The notes beneath the pieces are model-generated. The model did no database searches. It was given only the letters and a program-made list of their open reading frames with translations, and was not told the DNA's origin. Both the position numbers and the translations under genes were made by a program. From Streptomyces sp. DG2A-72 (GTDB lineage: Bacteria; Actinomycetota; Actinomycetes; Streptomycetales; Streptomycetaceae), in the NCBI RefSeq assembly GCF_030499575.1, contig NZ_JASTLC010000001.1, positions 248,001 through 312,000 on the forward strand: DNA of 64,000 nt, read 5' to 3'. Shown here piece after piece: positions 47,560-62,131 of this stretch (positions are counted from its first letter, which is position 1; each line of letters opens with the position of its first letter).

Positions 47560-47579
47560 CCCCCTCGTCTACGAGGGGG
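47560..47579. mobile_element. Right-end hairpin of the TnpB element
   Basis: CCCCCTCGT-CT-ACGAGGGGG is a perfect 9-bp stem 9 bases after the tnpB stop, followed by GAGGATTCCAACTC. IS200/IS605-type elements end in such hairpins, and the guide RNA of TnpB is read from this end. It also contains the stop codon of the HupE-like gene on the other strand. Confidence 0.65.
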
Positions 47580-48957
47580 AGGATTCCAACTCGGGACATG
47601 TCGCCGCAGCGGGCTCGGTCGGCCCGGGCCGTGCGTGCTGACGGGTGGCCAGGGTCCAGGCGGTGGCGGCGAGTGCGGTCACCGTGAGGGCGGCCAGCAT
47701 CGGCGTGGTGTGGGATCCGGCGCTGTCGGCTGCCCGGGCGACGGGGTTGGGCAGTCCGAGGCGGTCGGCCAGCCAGCCGACGGCCGCGGTGCCGGTGAGC
47801 AGGGCGCCGGCCAGTCGTAGCGTGGGCTGGATGCGCAGGCGTGCCAGCATCAGCAGCGAGGGCAGGGCCAGGCAGACCAGCAGGAGCTGGACCAGTTCGA
47901 TGCCGAGGTTGAAGCCGAGGAGGCTGGTCACGAGCTGTCCGGTGGACAGGTGCATCTCCGCCAGGACGAAGGAGAACGCCATACCGTGGCCGAGCCCGAA
48001 GACTCCGGCCACGAGCGCCTCCTTGCCCGGGAAGAGGGGGCGGATCGCGTGGATCGCGCCGACGAGGATGCTGGCGGCGATGAACGCCTCGACCGGCCAG
48101 TCCGGGATGTCCAGGCGGCCGAGCGCGGTGACGGCCAGCGCGACGGAGTGCCCGACGGTGAAGGCGAGCGTGATGCGGGCGATCCGGCCGAGCGCGGACC
48201 GGGCGCCGACCAGGCCGTCCCAGCGCCGTCCGGTGGCCGCGAGCGGTGCGGGCAGGAGCAGGATCAGCAGGAAGAGCAGGTGGTCGGTGCCGGTGAGGAT
48301 GTGGTCGCCGCCCAGCTTCACCATGGCGAGGAACCCGCGCCAGGCGCTGCCGTCGCCGAGGTCGACTTTCAGGGCGGGGACGGTCATGGTCCGGGTGTCG
48401 ACCCGGATGGTGCCGACCTGGGTGGCGCCCTCGCCGTCGATCTGCCCGGTGGCCCAGTCCTGACGTATCGTCACCAGGGCGGTGTGCGTGATGACCTGGT
48501 GGACGATGACGTCGTAGTCGAAGGTGAAGTGGCGTACGTCGGTGCCGGCCGGCGGGGTGAGTACGGCCTCGGCGACCAGCTCGCGGTAGGGGCCGGTGGA
48601 GGTCTGCTCGGTGCGGCTGAGGCTCAGGCTGCCGATGCTGACCTGCCAGGCCTTGCCCTGGGTGGTGGCCGGGTGGATGTGCTTGCCGAGGTAGGTCCGG
48701 ATGGCCTCGGCCTTTCCGGACAGCGTGGCCTGGGTGGTGTCGCTCAGGTCGATCCCGCTGGCCCGGGAGAAGTCGTCGACCGGCAGTTCCAGCCGTGCGG
48801 CGACCGACGCCTGGTACACGTCGAGTTCCACCACCGAGTGCGGCATCGGATGCGCGGCGGCCGGCGGCGCCCCGAGGAGGAGCGCCGCCGGTACCGCGAT
48901 CGCGATCCCGGCCACCAGACGCAGTGCTGTGGTCAGCCAGTTTCGCGGTCGGGTCAT
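47569..48957 (-). CDS. HupE/UreJ-like membrane protein, copy 1 of the DUF3500-HupE module
   Basis: The 462-residue protein has a signal peptide cut before H36 (PPAAA-HPMPHSVVEL), an extracellular domain of about 170 residues, then six to seven helices with the HupE pattern: GTDHLLFLLILLLPAPLA, FTVGHSVALAVTALG, ILVGAIHAIRPLFPG, GLGHGMAFSFVLAEM, TSLLGFNLGIELVQLLLVCL. HupE/UreJ proteins are linked with nickel or cobalt uptake; the His/Asp residues within helices fit a metal path. The ATG overlaps the stop of the DUF3500 gene (ATGA). Its last codons (ESSPS-stop) read into the TnpB right end, so the C-terminal tail was replaced. Confidence 0.85.
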   Translation of the reverse strand: MTRPRNWLTTALRLVAGIAIAVPAALLLGAPPAAAHPMPHSVVELDVYQASVAARLELPVDDFSRASGIDLSDTTQATLSGKAEAIRTYLGKHIHPATTQGKAWQVSIGSLSLSRTEQTSTGPYRELVAEAVLTPPAGTDVRHFTFDYDVIVHQVITHTALVTIRQDWATGQIDGEGATQVGTIRVDTRTMTVPALKVDLGDGSAWRGFLAMVKLGGDHILTGTDHLLFLLILLLPAPLAATGRRWDGLVGARSALGRIARITLAFTVGHSVALAVTALGRLDIPDWPVEAFIAASILVGAIHAIRPLFPGKEALVAGVFGLGHGMAFSFVLAEMHLSTGQLVTSLLGFNLGIELVQLLLVCLALPSLLMLARLRIQPTLRLAGALLTGTAAVGWLADRLGLPNPVARAADSAGSHTTPMLAALTVTALAATAWTLATRQHARPGPTEPAAATCPELESSPS

Positions 48958-50231
48958 GAGAAGGAGAACCCGCTGCCGTAGTCGCGGGTGTGGTCCCGGT
49001 AGACGGTGTGGTAGTGGACCTTGTCCTGGTAGACGAAGCCGTTCTGGCAGACGAACTCGATCCACACGCTGGGGCCGTCGATGCGGACGTAGTCACCCTG
49101 GGTATCCAGGCCCGTGCCGCCGGAGTAGCCGATGTAGGTCTCGTTCAGCTCACGCGCGTACGTCTTCATGAGCCGCTTCGCGGTGACGTCGTCCACGCCC
49201 GCGACCCAGGGGTGGATCGCCTCCAGGACCAGCTTCTGCTGCTTGGGTGACAGCTCGCTGGCCTTGATGCCCTCCTTGGTCTCCGGGAACTGACCGTCCT
49301 CGCCCGGGCCGAGCAGCACATCGTTGAAGGACTCGGACAGCTTGGCCTTGGCCAGTTGCTCCGTGCTCAGGCTGCCGGTCAGGGCGAGCATGCCGTTGCG
49401 GAACTTCGCCATCGGCTCGTACGTGGTGCCGTCGTCCGCGGTCCAGCTGGTGGGCTCGACGCCGGTGAAGAACGGGCTGGCGCCGGCCACCTTGCCGTCC
49501 TTGTAGGTGACGTTCACGGCGAGGTGGTGGCCGCCGAACTGCAGTTGCCAGGTGCCGTCGACCGACGGGGTGCCCAGGAACGCCATGAGGTAGATGTCAC
49601 TGCCGTACCCGGCGCCGCCGCCTGCGCCACCGCCGGGGTCGCCGGACGGTGGGGTGCCCGTGGGGGCGTCGGTGGCCGTGGCGCTCGGGTCCGCCGAAGC
49701 GGAGGGGTCGGCCGAGGCCGAGGGGGCGCTCGACGTGCCGCCCGACGGCGCGGCGGGCCCGGAGCCGGAGCTCTCCGCCGAGGCCAGCTGGTCGTCGGCC
49801 AGGAGGGTCTCAAGGACGTGCTCGTAGCCGGTGCCCTTGCCGGTCCCCAGGGCTACCTTCAGCACGTTCTTCAGGGCGGCCAGCTGCTCGTCGCTCAGCG
49901 AGCCCGTCTGGATGCCGACCCGGCAGGACGACCCGCACGGCAGGTTCGACCACGCGGTCGCGTTCGCCTGGGAGTAGTCCAGGACCGTCGCCGCCTGCTG
50001 GTCGGAGTCCAGCGTGTTCAGGAACGCGTTGGCGGCGCTGACCACGGCCGCGACGCCGTTGGCCTTCTTGTCGACCGGGTAGTGGACACCGGCCTTCTTC
50101 GCGGCGCCCGTGGTTGTCGCGGCGTTGGCCGCCACGAATCCGCCCCCGACGAGGACCACACCGGCGGCCACGCCGGCTATGCCCCGCCAAGTCCGTCGGT
50201 GACGAGCCCGACTTGTTCTCTCTTTGCTCAC
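48954..50231 (-). CDS. DUF3500 secreted/anchored protein, copy 1
   Basis: The 425-residue protein has a basic start and an N-terminal helix (GIAGVAAGVVLVGGGFVAAN A), a helical part (VVSAANAFLNTLDSDQQAAT, WSNLPCGSSCRVGIQTGSLS), a low-complexity Ser/Ala/Asp/Pro/Gly linker (about 155-205), and the DUF3500 core: WQLQFGGHHLAVNVTYKDG, GVEPTSW, YVRIDGPSVWIEF and the C-terminal VHYHTVYRDHTRDYG, rich in His and Asp. Start GTG 50231 follows GGGAG; GTG 50237 is in frame. It is coupled to the HupE-like gene. A 26-base palindrome lies 86 bases upstream. The biochemical role of DUF3500 is not established. Confidence 0.85.
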   Translation of the reverse strand: MSKERTSRARHRRTWRGIAGVAAGVVLVGGGFVAANAATTTGAAKKAGVHYPVDKKANGVAAVVSAANAFLNTLDSDQQAATVLDYSQANATAWSNLPCGSSCRVGIQTGSLSDEQLAALKNVLKVALGTGKGTGYEHVLETLLADDQLASAESSGSGPAAPSGGTSSAPSASADPSASADPSATATDAPTGTPPSGDPGGGAGGGAGYGSDIYLMAFLGTPSVDGTWQLQFGGHHLAVNVTYKDGKVAGASPFFTGVEPTSWTADDGTTYEPMAKFRNGMLALTGSLSTEQLAKAKLSESFNDVLLGPGEDGQFPETKEGIKASELSPKQQKLVLEAIHPWVAGVDDVTAKRLMKTYARELNETYIGYSGGTGLDTQGDYVRIDGPSVWIEFVCQNGFVYQDKVHYHTVYRDHTRDYGSGFSFS

Positions 50232-50316
50232 GAACACTCCCTGAAGACAAGGGTGGGGGACGGTGCGCCGACTCTGCGGGCGGCGGCGTCCAGAACACGC
50301 GCGCGCTGGATGAGAG

Positions 50317-50342
50317 AGCTATCAGCAATATTGTTGACAGCT
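50317..50342. promoter_or_regulatory. 26-base imperfect palindrome upstream of DUF3500 copy 1
   Basis: The site starts and ends with AGCT and centres on CAATATTG; the half sites AGCTATCAGCAAT and ATTGTTGACAGCT pair with two mismatches per arm. It is AT-rich against its surroundings. It is likely an operator for the DUF3500-HupE operon; the shape is similar to sites of GntR-type regulators, which is a weak inference. Confidence 0.6.
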
Positions 50343-50507
50343 CAAGGCGCGAGCCTTCGGGCCTGTCCCAATTGGATGGCTGGCACCCCATATAATGGAA
50401 ATATCCTGGGCTCGTTGACAGGTTTCTCCCATTGCGGCTTCAGCCGCCGAAACGGGCGCGCGTCACGAGAAGACCGCCGTCCCGGCACCTTCTCCACCAT
50501 CGGCAGG

Positions 50508-50837
50508 ATGGCCGCGCTCCACCTCGCTGAACAGCGTCCGACGCGTGATCGTGGCGACGACGTCCAGAGGGAACAGCCCGCCCTGCACGCGGTCGGCGAT
50601 CTCACCCTCACCGGCCGCGTCGAGACCACCCTGCGCACCGACACCCCCGACGGCGACCGCCCGGCCCTGCTCGTCGGCTGCGACGGCAGGAACCTGTGGG
50701 TCACCGGCCCGGACGGGGACGGGCTGGGCGAGACGGTCCTGACCGAACCCGCGGCGACCCTGCGCATCCTCACCATCGGCGAACACATCGAGGTCTACGC
50801 CAACGGCGTCTTCGCCCTCACCACCCTGTGCTACTAG
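50508..50837 (+). pseudogene. Glycosidase C-terminal fragment (GH32-like beta-sandwich end)
   Basis: A 109-codon frame reads LTLTGRVETTLRTDTPDGDR, LLVGCDGRNLWVTGPDG and ends LRILTIGEHIEVYANGVFAL TTLCY. The last segment (a strand ExIEVYANGxFALTT) is the usual C-terminal end of GH32/GH43-type beta-sandwich domains. The catalytic part is missing and the N-terminal 30 residues are unrelated. I see it as a leftover of a glycosidase gene next to the intact GH27/GH43 pair. Confidence 0.5.
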
Positions 50838-51064
50838 GGCCACCCCGCCCCGTGGACGGCCGTGTCGGAGTGCCGTACCCGCACCGTTCCCGTCCGCCCG
50901 ATCCGCCTGCCCGACCCCGACCGCGACTACGCCTCGGCCGTCTGGCCCGGTCTGTCCGCCCACTGATTTCCTGCGGTGCGGCTGCCCGGCAGGCGACACC
51001 GCCCGTCGCCGGGACCGGTTCGACGGCCGGGTCGGCGACGGGCGGTGTGGCAGCACAGGTGAGG

Positions 51065-53065
51065 TCAGTTGAGGGTCCACTGCTGGTTCGTCTGGCCGTT
51101 GCAGGTCCACAGGATCAGCTTGGTGCCGTTGGCGGTTGCCGCTTCGGAGGCGTCCAGGCAGAGGCCGGAGAGGTTGTTGGTGACGGTTCCGTTGGCGTTG
51201 ACGGTCCACTTCTGGTTGGTGCCGTTGTTGCAGTCCCAGATGATGACCTTGGTGCCGTCGGTGGTGCCGTTGTTGTCGGCGTCCAGGCACTTGTTGCCGT
51301 AGACGACGAGCTCGCCCCGTGAGGTCTGCGTGAAGGTCTCGTTCCGCCCGCCGAAGCAGTCCCACAGGATGGCCTGAGAGGCGTTGGCGATGGTGTTCTT
51401 CTCCAGGCCGGCGCAGCGGTTCGAGGCGGCGCCGACGAAGGCCACGCCGTTGGTGCCGGGGATGCCCTGGACACGGATCGCGTCGATGTTGGGCGCGGTG
51501 CTGCCGGAGACCGTCGCGAAGCGCACGGTGTTGGTGCCCTTGGCCAGGTGCGCCAGTACGGACACCGTGCGATAGGTCGTGGCTGAGCCGGTCGGCGGGA
51601 AGGCGACGACGTAGCTGTACTGGCCGTTGACCTTGATGGTCGCCTTACGGGCCGTGCTGCCACCGTTGGCGTAGGTGATGTCCACCAGCTTGGTGCCCGC
51701 CGCGCCGGTCGTGACGGCACTGAACGTGGGTGTGGTCGCCGTGGTGGTGTCCTCGTAGGTCGACCCGGACGCCTCGGTGCCGGAGACGGTGAGCAGGACG
51801 GCGTAGTTCGCCGGGACGGTGGTGGAGTAACTCGTGGCGTGGGAGCCGGCGTTGGTGCCGGTCCACACGTTGCGGACGGTGGCGGAGGCGGTGGTCAGGC
51901 CGAGGTCGGTCCAGCGGACGGTGATGTTCGCGGCGGAGCCGGTGCGGTTGAGCAGGAGCACCGCGCGCTTACCGGTGCCTGAGAGCACCTTGCCGTACAC
52001 CTGCAGGTTCCGGGTGTCCTCGGCGACCTTGACGCCCTGTAGCCCGCGTGGGTCCTGGTCGATGGCGATGACCTCGGAGTTGGTGAGGATGTCGCGGGTG
52101 GCGGTGCTCATCGTGGCCACGTTGTTGCCGGCCAGCAGCGGGGCGCCGGAGATGGCCCACAGGCCCATGTGCAGCCGGTTCTGAGCGTCACTCAGGCCGC
52201 TCATCCCGACCATCAGCATGTCGGGGTCGTTGTAGTACCCGGTGTGCTGGGCGGCCGGGTGCAGCCCCTTGTCGAAGTTGGCGAGCATCATGCCGGTGGT
52301 CGGGGTCTGGCCCCAGAAGATGACATCGGTGCTGGTGCGCCACAGGTCGCCGTATCCGGTGGCCCAGTTCCAGGGCAGTCCGGTGCCCCACTCGCAGAAG
52401 GACAGGACGAGCTTGTGCCCGGTGATGGCGGTCGCGGCCTCGTTGGCGGCGGTGATGGCCTTGTAGGTCGTCTCCTGGTCCAGGCCCTCCACGCGGCCGC
52501 CGCACCAGTCGATCTTGACGTAGTCGAAGCCCCAGCGCTGGAAGGTCTCCAGGTCCTGCTGGTAGTGGCCCTCCATGCCGGTGTTGGGGGCGGCGGGGCG
52601 GGTGGTGGGGTAGTAGTAGCCGCAGCCGTTCTTGCCGGCGTCGGTGTAGATGCCGGCCTTGAGGCCCTTGCTGTGGATGTAGTCGGCGATGGCCTTCATG
52701 CCGCCGGGCCACAGGTTCTCGTCGACGGCGATGGAGCCGTCGGCGTTGCGGTCGCCCTGCCACCAGCCGTCGTCGAGGTTGACGTACTTGTAGCCGGCGT
52801 CCGCCATGCCGGAGGAGACCAGGGCGTCGGCCTGCTGCTTGATGACGGTGTGGTCGATGCTGCTGGCGAAGCTGTTCCAGGACGCCCAGCCCATCGGCGG
52901 CGGAGTGACATCGATCTGGCTGGTGCTGACGGCGGTCGGCTCGGCGGACAGCGGTGCCGACGAATCGTGGTCGGCCAGGGCCGTCAGGCCGGCCAGGGCG
53001 AGTGCGAGGGCGAGGACGCGCGCGGTGACGCGTCTGGCCCAGCCACGTGCGGAGCTGTACGGCAT
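51065..53065 (-). CDS. Secreted GH27 alpha-galactosidase with CBM35-like and ricin-type (CBM13) domains
   Basis: The 666-residue enzyme has a signal peptide (VLALALALAGLTALA), a GH27 barrel (PPPMGWASWNSFASSI, LDDGWWQGDRNADG, nucleophile D186 in DYVKIDWCGGR, acid/base region NDPDMLMVG at about 279-287), a C-terminal beta domain, a CBM35-like module (about 425-530, STARKATIKVNGQYSYVV, NIDAIRVQG) and a ricin B-type trefoil (CLDADNNGTTDGTKVIIWDC, QKW, CLDASEAATANGTKLILWTC, QQWTLN). ATG 53065 has GAAAGG at the right distance; ATG 53080 is in frame. GH27 enzymes release terminal alpha-galactose or beta-L-arabinopyranose. It lies 17 bases after the GH43 gene, one operon. Confidence 0.93.
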   Translation of the reverse strand: MPYSSARGWARRVTARVLALALALAGLTALADHDSSAPLSAEPTAVSTSQIDVTPPPMGWASWNSFASSIDHTVIKQQADALVSSGMADAGYKYVNLDDGWWQGDRNADGSIAVDENLWPGGMKAIADYIHSKGLKAGIYTDAGKNGCGYYYPTTRPAAPNTGMEGHYQQDLETFQRWGFDYVKIDWCGGRVEGLDQETTYKAITAANEAATAITGHKLVLSFCEWGTGLPWNWATGYGDLWRTSTDVIFWGQTPTTGMMLANFDKGLHPAAQHTGYYNDPDMLMVGMSGLSDAQNRLHMGLWAISGAPLLAGNNVATMSTATRDILTNSEVIAIDQDPRGLQGVKVAEDTRNLQVYGKVLSGTGKRAVLLLNRTGSAANITVRWTDLGLTTASATVRNVWTGTNAGSHATSYSTTVPANYAVLLTVSGTEASGSTYEDTTTATTPTFSAVTTGAAGTKLVDITYANGGSTARKATIKVNGQYSYVVAFPPTGSATTYRTVSVLAHLAKGTNTVRFATVSGSTAPNIDAIRVQGIPGTNGVAFVGAASNRCAGLEKNTIANASQAILWDCFGGRNETFTQTSRGELVVYGNKCLDADNNGTTDGTKVIIWDCNNGTNQKWTVNANGTVTNNLSGLCLDASEAATANGTKLILWTCNGQTNQQWTLN

Positions 53066-53082
53066 GGGAAGGCCTTTCATGG

Positions 53083-54459
53083 TCAGTACCCGACCCGGAA
53101 GGTCGCGTCCTGCCGGTCCGTGGTCGTGGAGATGGGGTCGATGCGCAGGACGTAGTCCGAGTGGCGGATGTAGCTGGTGGGGTTGTTGTACGAGCGGAAG
53201 GACGCCCAGCTCGCGTCCGCCAGGCCCGCCGTGCGGTAGAAGGTCGCGTCCGCGGCGAACGTCGAGGTGCCGTCGTTCGCGTCCAGCTGGAGCGCGTAGT
53301 TGTAGTGCCGCAGATAGCGGGTCGGGTAGTTGACCGACCGGAAGGAGACCCCGGAGCTGTCGGCGAGCCCGGGGACCAGGGTCCACAGGGAGTCCTTGTA
53401 CGGTTCGATCGGGTACACGTCGATCCGGCCCACGTAGTTGGAGTGGCGGATGTAACGGGCCGGGTAGTTGTAGGACTTGAGCCGGTTCCAAGCCGGTGAG
53501 CCCCACTTGGCGAGCAGGTTGTCGTACTCGGTCGTGGTGATCGTCGTGATGCCGCAGTGCTTGGAGTTGACCGGCTGCGTGTAGGTCTTCTGGTCCAGCG
53601 CGGTCCAGGTGCCGGAGGCCAGGCTGCTCGACTGCCACGCGTAGAAGACACCGTTGGGCGTGTAGGTGTCGCCCCACAGCCACCAGTTGCCGGACGTGAG
53701 GGATTTGACCAGCGTCGGGGCCTCGGTGCCGCCGTGCGCCACCCCGGCGCTGTATTCGGTGAAGCTGCCCGGGTCCAGGGAGGTGGACCTGGCGCTCACC
53801 AGCGTCTGGTTCTTCTTGAAGTAGAGGTAGTTGTAACCGTTCACGCCGACCGCCATGTCGCCGTCGATGACGTCGTAGCCGGGGTCGAAGAACACCTGCG
53901 GGTCGGAGGCTGTGACGAAGTCGCTGGTGTAGTTGACCATGATGACGTTGTGGCCGCTGTCGTTCACGGACGAGTAGATGACCGCGTACTGGCCTCGGCC
54001 GGCGTCCCAGAACGCCTCCGGTGCCCAGCTGTGGGTCGTCATGTCGTGCAGCTTCAGGCGCCGGTAGCCGGTGAAGGTGCGCAGGTCGGCGGAGTCCCAG
54101 ACGTGGATGTACTGGCTGTTGTAGCTCCAGTCGGTGCCCTTGAGGTCGGTGGCGAGCACCACGAAGGTGCCGTCCTGCTTGCGCATGAGGAACGGGTCGC
54201 GCAGGCCCAGTGCGCCGGCGGTGGGGGTGACCAGGGGGTTGTTCTGGTTGAGCGGCGTCCAGTTCAGTCCGTCGGGGCTGACGGCCAGGTGCAGGCCGTA
54301 GTCGGTGCCGTCGCCGAGGTTGGTCGACTCGGTGAAGTAGACCATCGCGTACGCCGAGTCGGCGGCGTGGGCGGTGCCCGTGCCGAGCGTCAGGGCGAGG
54401 GGGACGGCGGCGGTCATGCCGAGGAGAGCGCGACGGGACAGATGGGGGTTTTCGCTCAT
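53083..54459 (-). CDS. Secreted GH43-like glycosidase with C-terminal arabinose-binding (AbfB/CBM42) domain
   Basis: The 458-residue enzyme has a Tat-type leader (HLSRRALLGMTAAVPLALTL GTGTAHA), a five-bladed propeller with GLRDPFLMRKQDGTFVVLAT, THSWAPEAFWDAGRGQYAVI, DVIDGDMAVGVNGYNYLYFK and GGTEAPTLVKSLTSGNWWLW, and an AbfB/CBM42 beta-trefoil (SYNYPARYIRHSNYVGRIDV, VNYPTRYLRHYNYALQLD, YNNPTSYIRHSDYVLRID). CBM42 binds arabinose side chains. It likely releases arabinose from arabinan or arabinogalactan. Start 54459 follows GGAGC. It is the first gene of the pair with the GH27 enzyme. Confidence 0.92.
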   Translation of the reverse strand: MSENPHLSRRALLGMTAAVPLALTLGTGTAHAADSAYAMVYFTESTNLGDGTDYGLHLAVSPDGLNWTPLNQNNPLVTPTAGALGLRDPFLMRKQDGTFVVLATDLKGTDWSYNSQYIHVWDSADLRTFTGYRRLKLHDMTTHSWAPEAFWDAGRGQYAVIYSSVNDSGHNVIMVNYTSDFVTASDPQVFFDPGYDVIDGDMAVGVNGYNYLYFKKNQTLVSARSTSLDPGSFTEYSAGVAHGGTEAPTLVKSLTSGNWWLWGDTYTPNGVFYAWQSSSLASGTWTALDQKTYTQPVNSKHCGITTITTTEYDNLLAKWGSPAWNRLKSYNYPARYIRHSNYVGRIDVYPIEPYKDSLWTLVPGLADSSGVSFRSVNYPTRYLRHYNYALQLDANDGTSTFAADATFYRTAGLADASWASFRSYNNPTSYIRHSDYVLRIDPISTTTDRQDATFRVGY

Positions 54460-54504
54460 CTTGTGCTCCAGGGTGGCGTGCGGGGGCACCCGAAGTGGCC
54501 GGTA

Positions 54505-54523
54505 TTTCGAACGGAGTTCGGAA
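54505..54523. promoter_or_regulatory. Inverted repeat upstream of the GH43-GH27 operon
   Basis: CGAAC-GGA-GTTCG within TTTCGAACGGAGTTCGGAAA, 46 bases before the GH43 start. It could bind a LacI-type or other sugar regulator. Confidence 0.45.
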
Positions 54524-54609
54524 AATCGATCAGACCGTAGAGCCAGGTCATGTGCTCGTCAATCTTCCTGTCATATATTTGTGTTTTCTGTGGGCTCCGG
54601 GGCGCGAGT

Positions 54610-54930
54610 GGCCCCGGGGCGGGCGGGATCGACGTTTGCGAGCTTGGCGTAGCCGCCGGCCCCGGCATTGCTGATCAGCAACCGGACGTCGCCGGTGGCG
54701 AGGCGGTCGGTGACAGTGGCCAGGTCGGAGCGTAGGCCGAGGCCGGCGGGGTGGGACCTCGACGGCCGTGTCGGCCTCGCGTAGTCCGTCGGCCAGGTGG
54801 TTCAACCGGTCGACGCGCCGGGCGACGGGTGAAATCGCACTCGGTGGCGAGGAGTCGGGCGTAGGTGGCGCCGACGCCGGACGAGGCGCCGGTGACAAAG
54901 GCCAGGGGGGCGACATGTTCTCCGCCTGGC
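54610..54930 (-). pseudogene. Short-chain dehydrogenase/reductase fragment
   Basis: AFVTGASSGVGATYARLLAT (the TGxxxGxG NAD-binding loop) begins at about 54903, and after frameshifts LRSDLATVTDRLATGDVRLL ISNAGAGGYAKLANVDP (NNAG-like motif) follows. The catalytic SxxxYxxxK region is missing. Confidence 0.75.
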
Positions 54931-55064
54931 GTGGCTGAAGGGCGGTGTGGTCGTGGCGGGGCGGCTGCGGGGAGGAGAAGTCCGGGACACGGACGCCGGG
55001 TGTCCCGGCCCCGGCTGTGGCCGGAGCCGGGACACCCCGGGTTCGTGGACGCTGACGTGCGCGC

Positions 55065-56270
55065 CTACTCGGGCAGCGGGAGGTGACCGATCACCTTCTC
55101 GCCAACGGCCGCGGACATCCGGAGAGCCTGGTAGCCGTAGCCGCGCATGGCTTCTTCGTAGGCGCCGATGCCGTCCAGGAGCGCCTTGTCGCCCCGCGCG
55201 ACGACGAGCAGTTCACCGCCGAGGACGTGCGCGTCGCGCAGCGCGGTGTTGGCGCCGATGCCCAGCGCCGGGCTCATGGCGTGGATGGAGTCGCCCATGA
55301 CGGTCACGTTCGAGGGCTCCCAAGCGGTCACCGGCACGCAGCTGCGCAGGGTCAGTGGCTGCACCGTGGTGACGTCCCACAGCCGGACGGTCTCCACCAG
55401 GGCGGGATGCCAGGAGGCCACGCGCTCCAGCGCGTATGCCTTCAGCTGCTCAGGCGTGGCGGCGAACAACTCGGCGTCGGGCCTCATGAGTTCGACGCGG
55501 GAGTTGAAGATGCTCAGCGCGTAGTTCTTGGTGGCTTCGTCCTGGAAGTCCTGGTCCTGTTCCTTGACCAGCGGCGAGTCGGGATTGCTGCGCTCCAGCG
55601 GGCCCAGGGTGAGCCCGGTGTAGTCGGAGTCGTAGGCCAGCGAGAAGGTGTTGAACAGCTGCGTCGGCAGCTTGGCCTTCGTCTCCTCGGTGATCGGGAC
55701 CTTCGCGGCTATATGGCGCGCGGCAAGGTCGGCGACCTTCACCTGCGGCAGCCTCTGGGCCCGCAGGGCGGAGTTGATGCCGTCCGCGGCGATCAGCACG
55801 TCGGCCTCGACCGTTTCCCCGGTGTCGAGGAGCACGGTGACGGTGTTGTCCGGGTTGGAGCGATACTCGGTGGCCTTGGCGCCGAAGTGGACGGCCTTTT
55901 CCAGGCCGAGGTGGAGGATCCGACGCAGTGTCGAGCGGCACACCACCAGGTGCTCCGGGATGTCGGTGGGCACGCCGATGCCTTCGGTGGCGGACTTGTC
56001 CCGGCCCGGGCGGGGGTTGAGCTGCTCGTCGAACAGCAGCATGTCGTCGTTGGGCATGCCGGAGGTCGCCAGGAACAGCTCCCACAGCTCCGGCTCCAGG
56101 GCCGCGTAGAGGGCGGAGGTGCCGGTGGAGTTGATGTGGATCCGGTAGCCGGCCTCGCGGGCGCCAATGCTCGTGTCGCGCTCGTAGACGGCCACGTCCA
56201 GGCCGTGCCGGTTCAGGTAGTGGGCCAGCGTCATCCCGGCAAGCCCGCCGCCGACGATGACAATACGCAT
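55065..56270 (-). CDS. FAD-dependent monooxygenase (PHBH/UbiH-like)
   Basis: The 401-residue flavoprotein has IVIVGGGLAGMTLAHYLNRH (GxGxxG at about 8-13), AGYRIHINSTGTSALYAALE, CRSTLRRILHLGLEKAVHFG, VLIAADGINSALRAQRLPQ (DG motif) and VMGDSIHAMSPALGIGANTA LRDAHVLGGEL (GD motif). It probably hydroxylates an aromatic or polyketide substrate. ATG 56270 begins the Rossmann strand directly. Upstream (56271-56512) there is no gene but a direct repeat. Confidence 0.9.
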   Translation of the reverse strand: MRIVIVGGGLAGMTLAHYLNRHGLDVAVYERDTSIGAREAGYRIHINSTGTSALYAALEPELWELFLATSGMPNDDMLLFDEQLNPRPGRDKSATEGIGVPTDIPEHLVVCRSTLRRILHLGLEKAVHFGAKATEYRSNPDNTVTVLLDTGETVEADVLIAADGINSALRAQRLPQVKVADLAARHIAAKVPITEETKAKLPTQLFNTFSLAYDSDYTGLTLGPLERSNPDSPLVKEQDQDFQDEATKNYALSIFNSRVELMRPDAELFAATPEQLKAYALERVASWHPALVETVRLWDVTTVQPLTLRSCVPVTAWEPSNVTVMGDSIHAMSPALGIGANTALRDAHVLGGELLVVARGDKALLDGIGAYEEAMRGYGYQALRMSAAVGEKVIGHLPLPE

Positions 56271-56414
56271 CCCAGACAAAAGTACTCCCAGTGCAAATAG
56301 TTCTCGTACTCGGGAGCACACCGGGCCTCTCCCAGGGAGAGGACGATTGACGCAGCCAGGCGTAATCGCCAGTGGCCTGCGCCCCGGACTACCAACCGGG
56401 ATGCAATTTCGTGT

Positions 56415-56441
56415 GCTACAGAATTCGTGCGCTACAGAATT
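56415..56441 (+). repeat. Direct repeat in the promoter region of the FAD monooxygenase
   Basis: GCTACAGAATT occurs at 56415-56425 and 56431-56441, one and a half helix turns apart, 145-171 bases upstream of the monooxygenase start. A regulator-binding site is possible. Confidence 0.5.
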
Positions 56442-56512
56442 GTACACCGGCATTCCGCCGGTGAGGGTCGGACCGGTTTTGTCGCGTGCAGCGCTTCTTT
56501 TGGTTCAGCAGG

Positions 56513-57274
56513 TCAGAGTGTGCGCGAGAGAAGGTCCAGCAGTGCCGCCCAGTGGCGTTCCGCGGTTTCCTGGTCGTAGGCGGCGGTATCGGCCTGCGTG
56601 AATCCGTGATGCGCCCCCGCGTACACCTCGCAGCGGTGGCGTACGCCCGCCTCGGCCAGGGCCTTGTTCAGGCGCTCGATCTGCTCGGGCGGCAGTGCGC
56701 GGTCCTGGTCGGCATGGCCGAAGTACAGCTCCGCGGTGATGCGGTCGGCGAGCAGGTGCGGGCTGTCCGGCGCGGTGGAGGCGAGGTTCGCGCCGTGGAA
56801 GCCGGCTGCGGCGGCCACTCGGTCCGGGTAGCTGCCGGCCGTGCGCAACGCCAGGCCGGCGCCCATGCAGTAGCCGGTGACGCCGACCGGCCCGCCCCTG
56901 GTCATCGGGCATTCGGCCAGCCAGTGCAGGTAGGCGTTGGCGTCCCGCATAGCCGCCTCCGGCGTCAGGGACTGGATGATCGGTCCGATCTGCTGGAAGA
57001 GCTCCGGGCGTGCGGCCGGATCGACGAAGTCGGGCAGGTCGATCACCGGCGCCCGTCCGTGGCGGTAGAAGACGTTGGGTACCAAGACGGTGTACCCGGC
57101 CGAGGCCAGACGGTCGGCCATCTCCTTCAGGTGCGGGCGCAGCCCGAAGGCGTCCATGTAGAGCAGGACAGCGGGGAACGGGCCGGTGCCGTCCGGATGC
57201 GCCAGGTAGGCGTCCGCACTGCCGTCCTGCGTGGGAATATCCACCGGTATTCCACGCACAGCGGTCATCTGCAT
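56513..57274 (-). CDS. Dienelactone hydrolase-family protein
   Basis: The 253-residue alpha/beta hydrolase has FPAVLLYMDAFGLRPHLKEM, VLVPNVFYRHGRAP, the Cys nucleophile elbow VGVTGYCMGAGLALR, Asp in YFGHADQDRALPPE and His in YAGAHHGFTQAD. The Cys-Asp-His set is that of dienelactone hydrolases (ring-cleavage of chlorocatechols) and general carboxymethylenebutenolidase-like enzymes. A very strong AAAGGAGGGG precedes clustered ATGs at 57277, 57274 and 57268; I used 57274. It is followed by the FAD monooxygenase on the same strand. Confidence 0.9.
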   Translation of the reverse strand: MQMTAVRGIPVDIPTQDGSADAYLAHPDGTGPFPAVLLYMDAFGLRPHLKEMADRLASAGYTVLVPNVFYRHGRAPVIDLPDFVDPAARPELFQQIGPIIQSLTPEAAMRDANAYLHWLAECPMTRGGPVGVTGYCMGAGLALRTAGSYPDRVAAAAGFHGANLASTAPDSPHLLADRITAELYFGHADQDRALPPEQIERLNKALAEAGVRHRCEVYAGAHHGFTQADTAAYDQETAERHWAALLDLLSRTL

Positions 57275-57289
57275 CATCCCCTCCTTTCA

Positions 57290-57619
57290 TTGGTGCGCAA
57301 TTTGGTCGAGATATCCAAAAGGAAGAGCTCGGCATTATGACTGGTGTCGAGTTGATCGCGGCGATTCATTCTATTCCGCCACGCAGCTTCGTTGGTACCC
57401 GTGCGGCAGGTGATGCTTCACCCACTTTCAGCGCCTTGACGAAGCATGGAAAACCTGGTCAGCGCAATGCTCGGTTTGACGGAAAGGAATAAATCCGCCC
57501 GCCGGCAGTCGGAGGTCGAGTGGGTTGGGAACGTCGCGTGCTCGCGGGTCCACGGTCATGTCCTGCTCCAAGGCCCGGTGCTGAGGCGGGCGTTCCTGGC
57601 CCCATGCCTGTCTGTCGCG
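57290..57619. other. Intergenic region without a gene
   Basis: Frames here are short and lack family features. The 57300-57440 part is less GC-rich (promoter side of the dienelactone hydrolase gene). Confidence 0.5.
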
Positions 57620-57665
57620 GCGAGCCCCGGGACCCGAGGGGGGAGTACGTGGTCCCGGGGCTCGC
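57620..57665. terminator. Large perfect hairpin
   Basis: A 15-bp stem (57620-57634 with 57651-57665, GCGAGCCCCGGGACC and its complement) around a 16-base loop. No T run; it may be a bidirectional terminator typical of high-GC actinomycetes. Confidence 0.6.
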
Positions 57666-57889
57666 GCGGGGCGCCGTCCCGTCCCTGCGGAAGGCGCCCG
57701 TACCGGCTCTGTTAATTTCCGTCCCCAAGTGTTCGGTGACCAAGTATTCGCTGCAGGACCGTGGAAAACCGCCATCTGTCCTGCGCTGACGCAGAACTTG
57801 CGTCAGTCACGCATGGTGGGGTGCGCCATATGCCTCATCCGCCCGCCCGACGGTGATCGAAGCCCCGGACCACACCGGCGCGGCCGTCA

Positions 57890-58577
57890 GGCCGAGTCGC
57901 GGACGATCACCCGCCCGGGAGGGCGGGCGGGTCAGCGGCCTCCAGGCCGAGCACCCTTTGGGCGGCCAGCCGCCCATGCACCTCGGCGTCGATGTGGACG
58001 GTGGTCAGTACGCGCGTGCTCAGTTCGCTGTACTCGGTGTCGGCGAAGCCGCTGACGGCCAGGCCGCCGGGCGCGGCGAGGTCGAGGTCGCGCAGGGAGG
58101 TGAGCGTGCGCAGGCGATGGCGTCGTCGAAGGCGGGGACGGCGATGACATGGAGGTGCTCGGCGAGGAAGTCGCGCACGGCGCCGCCGGCCGCGGCCCGG
58201 GGGCAGGGCAGGACAAAGGCCGGTATCGGCGGCAGCCCCAGTCCGATCGCGGTCTGCCCGGCGAAACCGCGGCGCAGGTCGACGAGAGGGGATGGGCGGT
58301 CGGGCAGGGTGAGGGCGATGCGGGTGTCCCCGCGGTCGGCGGGGTGGCGGATCTGCAGGCGGCGTACCCGGCGAAACCGGCCTCCCAGTCGCTGTCCGTG
58401 GGCTCGCGCCCGTCCAGGCGGGACTCGGCCAGCCGTAGGACGGCGCTTGGGTCTGCCGCCCCGGGCGGTCGGCCCACGCGCCGCGCCCAGGCCGCGGTGC
58501 TCGCGGTTGTACCAGGCCGCGCCGATGCCCAGGGTTACCCGGCCGCCGGACAGCACGTCGAGCGTAGCGGCGATCTA
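57890..58577 (-). pseudogene. Remnants of an F420-type luciferase-like oxidoreductase and a LacI-family regulator
   Basis: At 58577-58490 the minus strand has AATLDVLSGGRVTLGIGAAW YNREHRGLG, an internal block of LLM-class F420 oxidoreductases. From about 58365 the C-terminal half of a LacI/PurR-type sugar regulator follows with frameshifts: RGDTRIALTLPDRPSPL, FVLPCPRAAAGGAVRDFLAE, VPAFDDAIACA, VSGFADTEYSELSTRVLTTV HIDAEVHGRLAAQRVLGLE. Neither gene is functional. The LacI remnant is close to the glycosidases and may have been a sugar regulator. Confidence 0.65.
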
Positions 58578-58728
58578 GGCGAGGAGCCCGGGGTGACGGT
58601 ACGTCACCCCAGTGACCAGAGAGCCCAGTCGCACCGTGGAGGTATGGGTGCGGCCAGGTAGGCCAGGGTCATGTAGGGCATGTCCCCTGGGCACGGCTGC
58701 CGCAGCGGCTGGGCAGGCATGAACGCTG

Positions 58729-60051
58729 TCAGTGGGCTCCGGATCGAAGCGTTCCGTCGCCGTCGGACGGCGTCTGTGGCGCAGTGCGCCGGGCGACGAC
58801 GGCCAGCGCCGCGACCGTCACGGCGACGAGCAGCGGGTGGTCGACCAGCCACGTCTGGATGCCCTCGAAGGGGTCGGTCGATGTGAGGGTGGCGCGCTCG
58901 AGCATCCAGGAGACGGAGAACAGCAGGCCGAGGAGGGCAACCCCGATGCGGAAGGCAGGGTAGAAGGCGGTGCGGGCCAGGACGATCAGGGAGGGCATCA
59001 TCAGGGCGATGACGAGCAGTTGGGTCAGTTCGATGCCCAGGTTGAAGCCCAGCAAGGTGGTCACGAGCGAGCCGCGGTCGAGGCCGAGGTCGCCGATGAG
59101 GGAGGCGAACGCCAGGCCGTGGACGAGACCGAAACCGGCGGCGATGAGGATCTCTCCGCGGGCCACCAGGGGGCGTAGAGCGTGCACAGCGGACACGGCG
59201 ATCGAGAAGGCGATCAGGGTCTCGACCGGGCGGGTCAGCAGGTTGATCACCCCGGTGGCCGCCAGGACCAGGGTGAGCGAGTGGCCGATGGCGAACGCGG
59301 TGACGACGTGGACGACCCGGACGATACTGCGACGCGATGAAGGGGCCGAGCGCCATCGGCCCTCTGCGGCCACCAGCGGGGCCGGGATGAGCAGCATGAG
59401 GAGGAACAGCAGGTGATCTGCGCCCTCGCCGACGTGCTCGATACCCAGGCCGGCGGTGGTGGCGAAGCCTCGGATCCAAGAGCCTTCGCCTGCGGGGACC
59501 TTCAGGCTCTTGGTGTCGAAGTCGAAGACTCCGACGGTCTCGGCGTCGTCGGTCTTGAGAATGCCGCGGTCGAAGTCGTAGCGGACGGTGGCGATGACCT
59601 TGTGGGTGAGCAGTTCCTCGACGATGACGTCGTAGGCCAGGTCGAAGGTGGTGACCCGGCCGCCGGGCGGGCGGAGTTCGAGGGGATAGACGAGGTGCGC
59701 CACCTCGTCGATCGTGCGGACTGAACCGGTGCCGAGCCTGACGGTCCAGGGCCGGTCGTCTTCGCCGACGGCCGTGATGTGCTCGGCTGTGTACCGCTTG
59801 AGGAACGCCCGCTCGGCACCGAGCACGGTCTCCCGGGTGAGGTCCCGGTCCACGGAGACGGCCAAGCGGTCGACGGGCAGCTGCACCTCCCCCTCGACCC
59901 GGTCGTCGCGGACATCGAGGAGGACGGCCGAGGTGCTCATCGGATGGGCGCCGGCCGGCGACACGAGGCCGCCGACCAGTATGAGGGCCGCGAGCAGGAA
60001 CGTCGGCAGCAGACGAGCTGCCGACGGACGTGCGGGCAGGAGACGGCGCAC
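58729..60051 (-). CDS. HupE/UreJ-like membrane protein, copy 2 of the DUF3500-HupE module
   Basis: The 440-residue protein has a signal peptide (LLPTFLLAALILVGGLVSPA G-AHPMSTSAVLLDV), an extracellular domain of about 175 residues, and helices with the same markers as copy 1: GADHLLFLLMLLIPAPLV, FAIGHSLTLVLAATG, AVSAVHALRPLVARG, FGLVHGLAFASLIGDLG, TTLLGFNLGIELTQLLVIAL. Start GTG 60051 follows GAGGG, 10 bases after the DUF3500 stop. Unlike copy 1, the C-terminus is undisturbed. Metal transport is the best guess from the family. Confidence 0.87.
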   Translation of the reverse strand: MRRLLPARPSAARLLPTFLLAALILVGGLVSPAGAHPMSTSAVLLDVRDDRVEGEVQLPVDRLAVSVDRDLTRETVLGAERAFLKRYTAEHITAVGEDDRPWTVRLGTGSVRTIDEVAHLVYPLELRPPGGRVTTFDLAYDVIVEELLTHKVIATVRYDFDRGILKTDDAETVGVFDFDTKSLKVPAGEGSWIRGFATTAGLGIEHVGEGADHLLFLLMLLIPAPLVAAEGRWRSAPSSRRSIVRVVHVVTAFAIGHSLTLVLAATGVINLLTRPVETLIAFSIAVSAVHALRPLVARGEILIAAGFGLVHGLAFASLIGDLGLDRGSLVTTLLGFNLGIELTQLLVIALMMPSLIVLARTAFYPAFRIGVALLGLLFSVSWMLERATLTSTDPFEGIQTWLVDHPLLVAVTVAALAVVARRTAPQTPSDGDGTLRSGAH

Positions 60052-60061
60052 CGTGGAACCC

Positions 60062-61237
60062 TCAGCTCCATCCGTAGTCGGCGGTCTGGTCGCGGAAGAT
60101 CGTGTGCTGGTGCACTCCGTCGACCACGATGCCGCCCTGGTTGGAGAACTCGATCCAGACCGACGGGCCGTCGACCCGTACGTACGTCTCCTTGTTGTCG
60201 ATGGTCGTCGCGCCGCTCCAGCCCAGATACGTCTCGTCGTACTCGGAGACGTACTTGGCGATGAGCGCCTCGGCGGCCTCCTCGTCCAGGTCGTCGACCC
60301 ACGTGCGGATCATCGCGGTGACCTTGTCCTGCTGCTTCTTGCTGAGGTCGCCGACCACGACGCCTTCGGGGTCGGGGAAGGGGCCGTCGTTGCCGGGGCC
60401 GAGCAGCAGGTCGTCGAAGCTGCCGTCGATCTCGGCCTTCTCCAGTTCGCTGTCGCTGAGCGATCCGATGGCCGCGATGGTGGTGTCCCGCTTGTCCTGG
60501 AGCGGGGCGTACGACGTGCCGTCCGTCTCGAACTTCGACGGCTCGATGGCGGTCAGCGTGGGCGAGAGGCTGACGTCGTCCTTGTAGTAGGTGATGTTGT
60601 ACCCCGCGTGGTGGCCGTTGAACTGGACCGTGAACTGCTCGGTCTCGCTGGGCTCCCCGAAGAGGGCCAGGTAGTACTTGTCCGCGCCGTAGTCGTCGCC
60701 CCCGCCGGGGCCGCCCCCGCTGCCCGAGGACCCCACTTCGCTGAGGTACTCGTCCGCTATGCGGATATCCTCCAGCTCCTTGTAACCCTGCTCGCTGAGG
60801 GCGGCCTCCATGACCTTCAGCGCCGCGGCCTTCTGGTCGTCGTCGAGGTCGGCGAACTCGATGCCGTTGCGCGCGGCGAGCGAGATCGGGAAGTTCGACC
60901 AGCCCTTGGCCTTGGCCTCGTCGTCGAAGTCGTAGAGGGCGGTGTCCTTCTCGTCGTCGGAGAGCGTCTTGAGGAACGCGTTGGCGGCGGCAACGACCTC
61001 GGCGGTGTTCGCCTTCCCGGCGCCCGTGCTCGACGTCGTGGAGGAACTCTGGCTCGAAGATGCCTCGGACGACGTGGACGAGGAGTCCTCGGAGCCGCAG
61101 CCGGCGACGCCGAGGCCGATGCAGGTGGCGAGGGCCATGCCGCGAACGAGTGCCCGTCTTCGCCTTCCTCCGCGCGGCAGTGACCCGTGTGCGGGCAAAG
61201 CCGTCGGGGAAGAGGCGGTGGGGGAATGGGTGGACAT
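60062..61237 (-). CDS. DUF3500 lipoprotein, copy 2
   Basis: The 391-residue protein starts at 61237 after AGGAG and has a leader ending in a lipobox (LATCIGLGVAGC), so it is anchored by a lipid where copy 1 uses a helix. A Ser/Thr-rich tether, a helical region (VVAAANAFLKTLSDDEKDTA, GWSNFPISLAARNGIEFADL), and the DUF3500 core follow: FTVQFNGHHAGYNITYYKDD, YVRVDGPSVWIEFSNQGG and VHQHTIFRDQTADYG. It is co-transcribed with the HupE-like gene and faces the two-component system across a 198-base gap. Confidence 0.87.
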   Translation of the reverse strand: MSTHSPTASSPTALPAHGSLPRGGRRRRALVRGMALATCIGLGVAGCGSEDSSSTSSEASSSQSSSTTSSTGAGKANTAEVVAAANAFLKTLSDDEKDTALYDFDDEAKAKGWSNFPISLAARNGIEFADLDDDQKAAALKVMEAALSEQGYKELEDIRIADEYLSEVGSSGSGGGPGGGDDYGADKYYLALFGEPSETEQFTVQFNGHHAGYNITYYKDDVSLSPTLTAIEPSKFETDGTSYAPLQDKRDTTIAAIGSLSDSELEKAEIDGSFDDLLLGPGNDGPFPDPEGVVVGDLSKKQQDKVTAMIRTWVDDLDEEAAEALIAKYVSEYDETYLGWSGATTIDNKETYVRVDGPSVWIEFSNQGGIVVDGVHQHTIFRDQTADYGWS

Positions 61238-61263: not shown

Positions 61264-61306
61264 GGCTCCCATCGTGGGTGAGCCGTATGGGACTTCCATG
61301 GGAGCC
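61264..61306. promoter_or_regulatory. Inverted repeat between DUF3500 copy 2 and the two-component system
   Basis: GGCTCCCAT (61264-61272) pairs with ATGGGAGCC (61298-61306), 25 bases between arms. It lies 27 bases upstream of the DUF3500 start. Confidence 0.45.
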
Positions 61307-61372
61307 GCTTGTGAATTGGGCAAAGTCCGGGTCCCTGCCGGGCAGGGGCGAATGCGTTCGGAGTGGCGCGAG

Positions 61373-61435: not shown

Positions 61436-62131
61436 GTGCCGAACCGTGTCCTCATCGCCGATGACGATCGTGCTGTCCGCGAGTCCCTCGCACGGGCACT
61501 GAAGCTGCAGGGATATGAGGTCGTCACCGCCGCTGACGGGGTGGAGACGCTGACCCGAGCCCGTCGGGAGTCGTTCGACGCCCTGGTGATCGACGTGATG
61601 ATGCCGTACGTCGACGGCGTGGCGGTGTGCCGAGTGTTGCGCGCCGACGGTGATGTGACCCCGGTGTTGATGCTCACCGCGCGCGGCGCCACGTCGGACC
61701 GGGTTGCCGGGCTGGACGCGGGCGCCGACGACTATCTGCCCAAACCCTTCCAGGTCCCCGAACTGCTCGCTCGCCTGCGTGCGCTGCAACGCCGGGCCGC
61801 GCTTCCACTGCGTGCTCAGGGGGACAAACCGGCCAGCCTGCGCATCGCCTCCCTGCACATGGACCCGGACGCCCGCCGGGCCTGGTGGGCGGAGAAGGAA
61901 CTGCAGCTGTTGAAGACCGAGTTCGACCTGCTGGAGCTGATGGTGCGCAACGAGGGGATCGTGCTGGCCCATTCGACGATCTCGCACCGAATATGGGGCT
62001 ACCACTGCGGGACGCACACGAACAATCTGGCGTGCTACATCAGCTATCTGCGGCGCAAGCTCGCCGACGTCGGCGCGCCCGACCTGATCCACACGGTGCG
62101 TGCCGTGGGTTACGGAGTGCGGCGGCCATGA
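61436..62131 (+). CDS. OmpR/MprA-type response regulator
   Basis: The 231-residue regulator has a receiver with D9-D11 pocket, phospho-acceptor D53 in VIDVMMPYVDG, Thr in MLTARG and Lys in YLPKPFQVPELLARLRAL, then a winged-helix output domain (LLKTEFDLLELMVRNEGIVL, HTNNLACYISYLRRKLADVG, IHTVRAVGYGVR). The GTG at 61436 directly precedes the receiver strand. It overlaps the kinase start by ATGA. It is divergent from the DUF3500-HupE copy 2 operon, its probable target. Confidence 0.93.
   Translation: MPNRVLIADDDRAVRESLARALKLQGYEVVTAADGVETLTRARRESFDALVIDVMMPYVDGVAVCRVLRADGDVTPVLMLTARGATSDRVAGLDAGADDYLPKPFQVPELLARLRALQRRAALPLRAQGDKPASLRIASLHMDPDARRAWWAEKELQLLKTEFDLLELMVRNEGIVLAHSTISHRIWGYHCGTHTNNLACYISYLRRKLADVGAPDLIHTVRAVGYGVRRP

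Follow-up and report, generated by a model that had tools for sequence, protein, structure and literature searches.

A recurrent pairing of DUF3500 proteins with HupE/UreJ-2 permeases in Streptomyces and other bacteria: a candidate cell-envelope module for metal acquisition

Introduction

The closest described relatives of the permeases considered here are the anglerases Ang-1 and Ang-2, which were published as proposed importers (Nat Commun 2025, PMC12537917). According to the main text of that paper, both anglerase domains measured by thermal shift respond most to Cu; the next strongest response is to Ni for one domain and to Fe for the other. The copper ligand besides the N-terminal histidine is Asn41 in Ang-1 and Asp33 in Ang-2, with Asn41 itself not conserved. 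DUF3500 is not mentioned in that main text. Here we describe two gene pairs, each a DUF3500 gene followed by a gene for a HupE/UreJ-2 permease, in a 64,000-nucleotide stretch of DNA from Streptomyces sp. DG2A-72 (the window), and the recurrence of this pairing in other bacteria. The window is part of a 10.6-Mb genome, and the named genomes closest to it here are those of Streptomyces (among the best 80 of 209 matches in the scan described below).

In the literature that was accessible, the papers naming DUF3500 do not tie it to HupE and no established exported function was found for it. A search for any paper joining the two found none; it extended neither to supplements (that of the anglerase paper included) nor to subscription journals. 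The accessible text of the amipurimycin papers held nothing that we found on the ApmL/Amc20 protein, the one solved relative of DUF3500 considered below, and the name "Amc20" led, among the papers listed, to unrelated uses.

Results

Both pairs lie on the minus strand with the DUF3500 gene first (copy 1, 50237–47569; copy 2, 61237–58729). The DUF3500 protein of copy 1 (48954–50237, 427 residues; PF12006, 240 bits) belongs to clade E of the tree described below, has a hydrophobic N-terminus and is predicted to be exported, by way of either a signal peptide or an anchor helix. Its permease (47569–48957, minus strand, 462 residues; PF13795, 123 bits) carries an N-terminal ectodomain and lies inside the linked HupE clade. 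In copy 2, the DUF3500 protein (60062–61237, 391 residues; PF12006, 270 bits) is a predicted lipoprotein, and the permease (58729–60051, minus strand, 440 residues) has a predicted mature N-terminus at His36, an ectodomain at about residues 36–185 and membrane helices after it. All four proteins score between 123 and 270 bits, against Pfam cut-offs of 24.5 bits for PF13795 (HupE_UreJ_2) and 27.2 bits for PF12006 (DUF3500). The genes of copy 1 overlap by ATGA (HupE ATG at 48957, DUF3500 stop at 48956–48954) and those of copy 2 are separated by 10 bases (60052–60061). Open reading frames and Pfam matches thus bear out the two same-strand pairs that a sequence-only reading of the window had proposed, with both junctions. 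The motifs that it listed are also present: GHH, YxRxDGPSVWIEF and HxHTxxRDxTxDYG in DUF3500, and AHPM, DHLLFLL, GHS and LLGFNLGIE in HupE. As to its assignment of a helix anchor to one DUF3500 and a lipid anchor to the other, the lipobox VAGC of copy 2 agrees, whereas the copy 1 helix (GIAGVAAGVVLVGGGFVAANA/ATT) might just as well be a signal peptide that is cleaved off. A profile search of the whole genome returned just two HupE_UreJ_2 matches, each adjoining a DUF3500. The same genome also has a third DUF3500 without HupE and one DUF3500 fragment (G000:C1:7367208-7367279, L004). Stray fragments occur elsewhere in the genus (G008:C42:30512-30658 and G141:C113:88005-88280); all three are likely decayed copies.

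Named genomes were scanned with one peptide pattern taken from an alignment of copy 2 relatives, and the best 80 of 209 matches gave 78 loci. HupE lies downstream of DUF3500 on the same strand in 59 of the 78, a frequency that we judge to be above chance and that, given the origin of the pattern and the selection of matches, is not a family-wide rate; some of the rows counted as unlinked stop at a contig edge (L011, L044). Among the 64 pairs with a placed HupE start (window pairs excluded), 49 overlap or lie within 60 nucleotides of each other, 15 show a 4-nucleotide overlap, and the largest gap is 1085. With plasmid records included, the pairing is found in seven phyla: Actinomycetota, Bacteroidota, Ignavibacteriota, Acidobacteriota, Deinococcota, Pseudomonadota and Bacillota. 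It is present on annotated plasmids of Deinococcus (two), Spirosoma, Hymenobacter, Agrobacterium and Acidisarcina; a Paenibacillus plasmid record has it too, in a part without annotation. DUF3500 genes on plasmids of Curtobacterium, Pannonibacter and Sphingomonas have no HupE next to them, and phage records contained no DUF3500 at E 1e-5.

The linked proteins of each family group together. In a quick DUF3500 tree of 131 rows (SH-aLRT support only; matches shorter than 230 residues and duplicate loci dropped), group E, which is supported and comprises 102 rows, holds all 72 linked copies. Group U (29 rows) holds none, a result that is partly built in because loci L087–L106 and L120–L126 were picked as unlinked. 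In a HupE tree of 77 rows, from which seven short sequences were dropped (L049, L061, L062, L072, L111, L112 and L117), a single branch has all 67 linked HupEs to one side of it, a split recovered in 98% of 200 bootstrap trees. When the tree was enlarged to 103 rows (L140, L148 and L156 also dropped), the smallest such side contained all 80 linked HupEs and two unlinked ones (support 0.97), with 21 unlinked HupEs outside. HupEs from a survey of 147 genomes of the order behave in the same way; the eight that are linked to DUF3500 lie inside the clade, and all nine placeable sequences among the 11 others lie outside it. Genomes were also searched by HupE, and 12 places were retrieved after places already covered and short HupEs had been left out. 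Eight further HupEs score above 400 bits with a profile of the linked clade. Seven of these adjoin DUF3500, and the eighth (L144) lies close to the end of a contig, with no DUF3500 within 3 kb upstream.

The two pairs of the window are old. Copies 1 and 2 are only 40% identical in DUF3500 and 37% in HupE, and their identity to their own counterparts in Streptomyces sp. TRM70350 is 91–97% for DUF3500 and 89–94% for HupE. Trees place the copies in separate lineages in which each HupE tracks its own DUF3500. The description of the locus as a duplicated module is therefore misleading, and a local tandem duplication is ruled out by the same trees and identities since the two lineages predate the sampled Streptomyces species. 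Both pairs also lie near each other in TRM70350 (L013), so that the neighborhood is common to at least two species. Multiple copies are seen at other loci as well. Winogradskya consettensis has a tandem array, DUF3500-HupE-DUF3500-HupE-DUF3500 (L033, 2478–8969), in which the branches of the middle DUF3500 and of the second HupE are very long. On an Acidisarcina plasmid (L135, 7953–9990), HupE is preceded by a run of four annotated DUF3500 pieces, which look like one broken copy and a second copy.

Group E DUF3500s look exported, judging by their N-termini: 64 of 102 have a strong hydrophobic stretch and 46 of 102 a lipobox, against 1/29 and 2/29 in group U. These counts were made with simple thresholds, and the true starts of GC-rich reading frames are uncertain. 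Eight DUF3500s without HupE (L088–L091, L093 and L096–L098) have, by eye, twin-arginine-like signals (SRRWFMNKALL and similar), as opposed to the lipoprotein type of the linked group.

The predicted model of DUF3500 matches one solved enzyme, ApmL/Amc20 (PDB 9x86), which is labelled as a dehydratase of amipurimycin biosynthesis. Six residues (H209, H210, E363, H376, H378 and R382) reach at least 85% conservation in each of the two clades and are identical in the aligned part of Amc20; the strand register suggests that the C-terminal sheet carries R354, E363, H376, H378 and R382 on the same face. The conserved His209, His210, His376, His378 and Glu363 would also suit an extracytoplasmic metallochaperone whose His/Glu cluster binds an ion and hands it directly to the N-terminal histidine of HupE. 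The fixed DUF3500-HupE order and the chaperone–permease exchange published for YcnI–YcnJ (in the portion of that work that was accessible) are consistent with such a role. The same residues, however, are kept in clade U, mostly without export signals, and in the solved biosynthetic dehydratase, which points to catalysis, and we regard the metallochaperone as rather improbable. The motif that DUF3500 has in common with this solved enzyme leads us to favor an enzyme over a simple chaperone. The sequence-only reading had proposed a metal system with DUF3500 as its binding or processing partner. Linkage with HupE in other genomes, the check that this reading had itself set, is borne out within one clade, and together with a metal-type HupE it speaks for the system; as for the partner, the only solved relative is labelled a dehydratase, so an enzyme appears at least as likely as a carrier.

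The ectodomain of HupE has a predicted fold that matches 9gce, the β-sandwich, copper-bound Ang-1 domain of a HupE/UreJ-2 anglerase (RbAng-1a-like). A search of the copy 2 sequence against solved structures found no match, and an alignment search found just weak Factor VIII matches (E 0.063 or worse), so the link to 9gce comes from the fold. The predicted mature N-terminal histidine (H36, with the cleavage site placed from AxA) is invariant in 59 of 59 aligned sequences; this is the unbiased figure, as the pattern search for the N-terminal histidine itself required histidine. Y87, H206, D212, H213, H257, H311, N337 and E341 are likewise invariant in the alignment. The assignment of HupE to a metal-permease type thus stands, its ectodomain resembling one crystallized with Cu. 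The nickel or cobalt that had been suggested as its substrate is not favored, in view of the thermal shift responses of the two anglerase domains, which the main text gives as strongest with Cu (PMC12537917). We consider the metal-permease half to be well founded on the fold and on the published binding of relatives, and infer the direction and the metal at this locus.

Upstream of copy 2 and divergent from it are genes for an OmpR-family response regulator (61436–62131, plus strand; Response_reg and Trans_reg_C, start codon estimated) and a HAMP sensor histidine kinase (62128–63570, plus strand). The gap between the regulator and DUF3500 contains a block at 61301–61324 (minus strand; TTTGCCCAATTC...GGCTCC in the window) with columns invariant among 15 aligned copy-2-type loci, a candidate promoter or regulator site; the conserved gap yielded no identifiable site of a regulator. 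Both regulator and kinase adjoin 13 of 18 copy-2-type loci (L009–L026). They are not beside the Nocardiopsis loci L017, L019, L023 and L025 and are incomplete in L009. Over the wider set, queries from four clade-E loci (L127, L128, L131 and L132) found both genes no more than 4 kb away in 30 of the 72 linked rows, in 12 of the remaining 30 of group E and in 3 of the 29 of group U, the rows not being independent; at 13 other HupE loci there was no match to the regulator and one to the kinase. The output domains of the regulators vary (OmpR-like, LytTR), suggesting repeated origins of the association. The best NCBIfam match of the window kinase is the heavy-metal sensor kinase subfamily, below the cut-off. 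Such a sensor could co-regulate HupE as an exporter or resistance gene, or the pair could be an old operon without functional coupling. We nevertheless consider both ideas very unlikely in view of the fixed-order co-inheritance across phyla and the published proposal that anglerases are importers (PMC12537917, main text).

Six Bacteroidota loci (L057, L058, L070, L071, L081 and L129), and L051 from a metagenome-assembled genome titled Thalassovita, have a TonB receptor in the cluster, and the two Chryseobacterium loci have the order DUF3500-TonB-DUF3500-HupE. Six of the seven receptors were scanned; all have a Plug domain, four have a carboxypeptidase-like domain above cut-off, and in NCBIfam they come closest to the heme, siderophore and B12 receptor classes, with every match under the cut-off. 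One such cluster, on a Hymenobacter plasmid (L129, 343–11180), combines three DUF3500s, one HupE, the TonB receptor, a helix-turn-helix regulator and a cytochrome c peroxidase.

Other neighbors bear on whether DUF3500 could be an exported enzyme of carbon metabolism, acting for example on polyphenols or sugars, with HupE importing only a cofactor metal or an unrelated ion. The dehydratase label of ApmL/Amc20 would agree with this, as would a fungal DUF3500 protein proposed, in the accessible part of its source, as a dioxygenase on 1,2,3,5-tetrahydroxybenzene. Full-length HupE is also missing from some clade-E genomes. For clade U, 103 of 156 called neighbor genes were scanned, as sets of 78 and 25, and they include three FAA hydrolases, three FAD_binding_3 oxygenases and two amidohydrolases. 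These neighbors nonetheless have no family in common, any one family accounting for at most 4/78 and 2/25 genes. LPMO_10 makes up 2 of the 25. Between the two pairs of the window lie a FAD monooxygenase and a dienelactone hydrolase (55065–57277). We rejected aromatic catabolism by these enzymes as part of the module, as near copies of both recur in only one retrieved relative (L010); elsewhere among the retrieved stretches each has one distant match (L142 and L107), and the two genes are probably unrelated to the pairs. On balance, a role in carbon metabolism is possible but unlikely.

Partners of other HupE/UreJ-2 genes were inspected at eight plasmid loci. Four open with DUF4331 (Croceicoccus, two Pseudoalteromonas and Marinobacter), and one to three genes separate DUF4331 from HupE. 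Deinococcus proteolyticus has a phosphoesterase partner and Ruegeria has DUF3604 with a prolyl isomerase; no clear partner was seen at the remaining two of the eight. In the DUF4331 runs (L149, L151, L152 and L154), HupE/UreJ-2 stands at the end, and sigma or anti-sigma genes are annotated nearby in three of the four. Six of the eight plasmid HupEs fall outside the linked clade, that of Croceicoccus (L149) falls inside it, a possible partner swap, and that of Ruegeria is too short to place. This small sample suggests that HupE/UreJ-2 permeases are paired with different exported proteins, DUF3500-HupE being perhaps one version of a modular arrangement.

Discussion

The HupE half of the picture draws on the published anglerase work, and the DUF3500-HupE pairing and the clade structure are findings of this analysis; the reaction of DUF3500 and the identity of the metal are inferences. 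Our best explanation, tentative and in our judgment somewhat short of an even chance, is a two-gene cell-envelope module for metal acquisition, with DUF3500 as an exported enzyme that works on a metal–ligand complex and feeds the HupE permease. DUF3500 would work outside the membrane, dehydrating or opening an organic ligand and thereby releasing its metal; in a less likely variant, it would itself carry the metal. The N-terminal-histidine domain of HupE would capture the ion, most likely Cu or Ni, and pass it to the HX5DH site in the membrane for import. The neighboring kinase would sense metal need or supply, and each of the two lineages found together in one genome would have its own ligand or metal.

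Several observations weigh against this proposal. In samples that were not chosen for linkage, the pairing is uncommon, which argues against a general claim. Only 8 of 48 DUF3500 places in the order survey adjoin HupE (50 rows, two split genes joined) and 8 of 19 HupE genes adjoin DUF3500 (25 rows, six split genes joined); in a phylum survey of 296 genomes, the two pairs of the window genome were the only ones, and most Actinomycetota DUF3500s are not beside HupE. The conserved linkage holds within one clade, whereas most DUF3500s in these surveys have no adjacent HupE. Even in clade E, 30 of 102 rows have none, some of them at contig edges or as second copies. Searches of whole draft genomes found no HupE_UreJ_2 match in two Nocardiopsis, S. 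dysideae and a Flectobacillus metagenome-assembled genome, and only a piece in a third Nocardiopsis; four Pedobacter genomes, also drafts, combine a clade-E DUF3500 with only a short HupE_UreJ_2 that has no ectodomain. DUF3500 can therefore work alone. Conversely, the Croceicoccus HupE stands behind DUF4331 genes rather than DUF3500 despite its position in the linked clade. The correlation of DUF3500 and HupE distances (r 0.82; highest of 2000 permutations, 0.14), which counts in favor of the proposal, is inflated by shared descent. The TonB, kinase and regulator matches are all below NCBIfam cut-offs, and the conserved DUF3500 motif may be purely catalytic, without metal.

With its recurrent partner, a permease of a metal-binding type, and with its predicted export, enzyme-like fold and defined conserved motif, DUF3500 acquires a first testable job. 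A bolder extension, which we consider speculative and unlikely, is that DUF3500 breaks or dehydrates the ligand of an extracellular metal complex, the HupE histidine fishes out the ion, and HupE/UreJ-2 permeases are modular, those of each clade closing an operon after an exported protein particular to that clade (DUF3500, DUF4331 or a phosphoesterase), as widespread, unrecognized enzyme-assisted importers. Were other HupE/UreJ-2 clades also to carry their own exported protein, this would be a general design for metal uptake.

The module resembles several known systems in part. The periplasmic zinc-binding proteins ZrgA and PA4063 were solved with zinc as separate soluble chains without a permease domain, unlike the window HupEs. 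In the printed part of the crystallized ApmL/Amc20 chain (297 residues), an export signal is not seen, which sets it apart from group E DUF3500s, and we know of no permease partner for it. With the nickel or cobalt permeases of the HupE/UreJ type, the window HupEs share HXXXGXDH in the first membrane helix, GHS, HG and FNxGxE; they differ in their large ectodomain, in the absence of the proline of HPXXGXDH and in being tied to DUF3500. The closest likeness is to the Ang-1 and Ang-2 anglerases as described in the main text of PMC12537917, with which the linked HupEs have in common a signal peptide, a mature N-terminal histidine, a β-sandwich ectodomain and a HupE/UreJ-2 membrane domain. Whereas Ang-1 is reported there mainly from Pseudomonadota and Ang-2 only from Actinomycetota, the linked HupE clade spans seven phyla. 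The linked HupEs differ further in the invariant or near-invariant ectodomain residues Y87, H91, D141 and H150 and, from the anglerases as published, in their DUF3500 partner.

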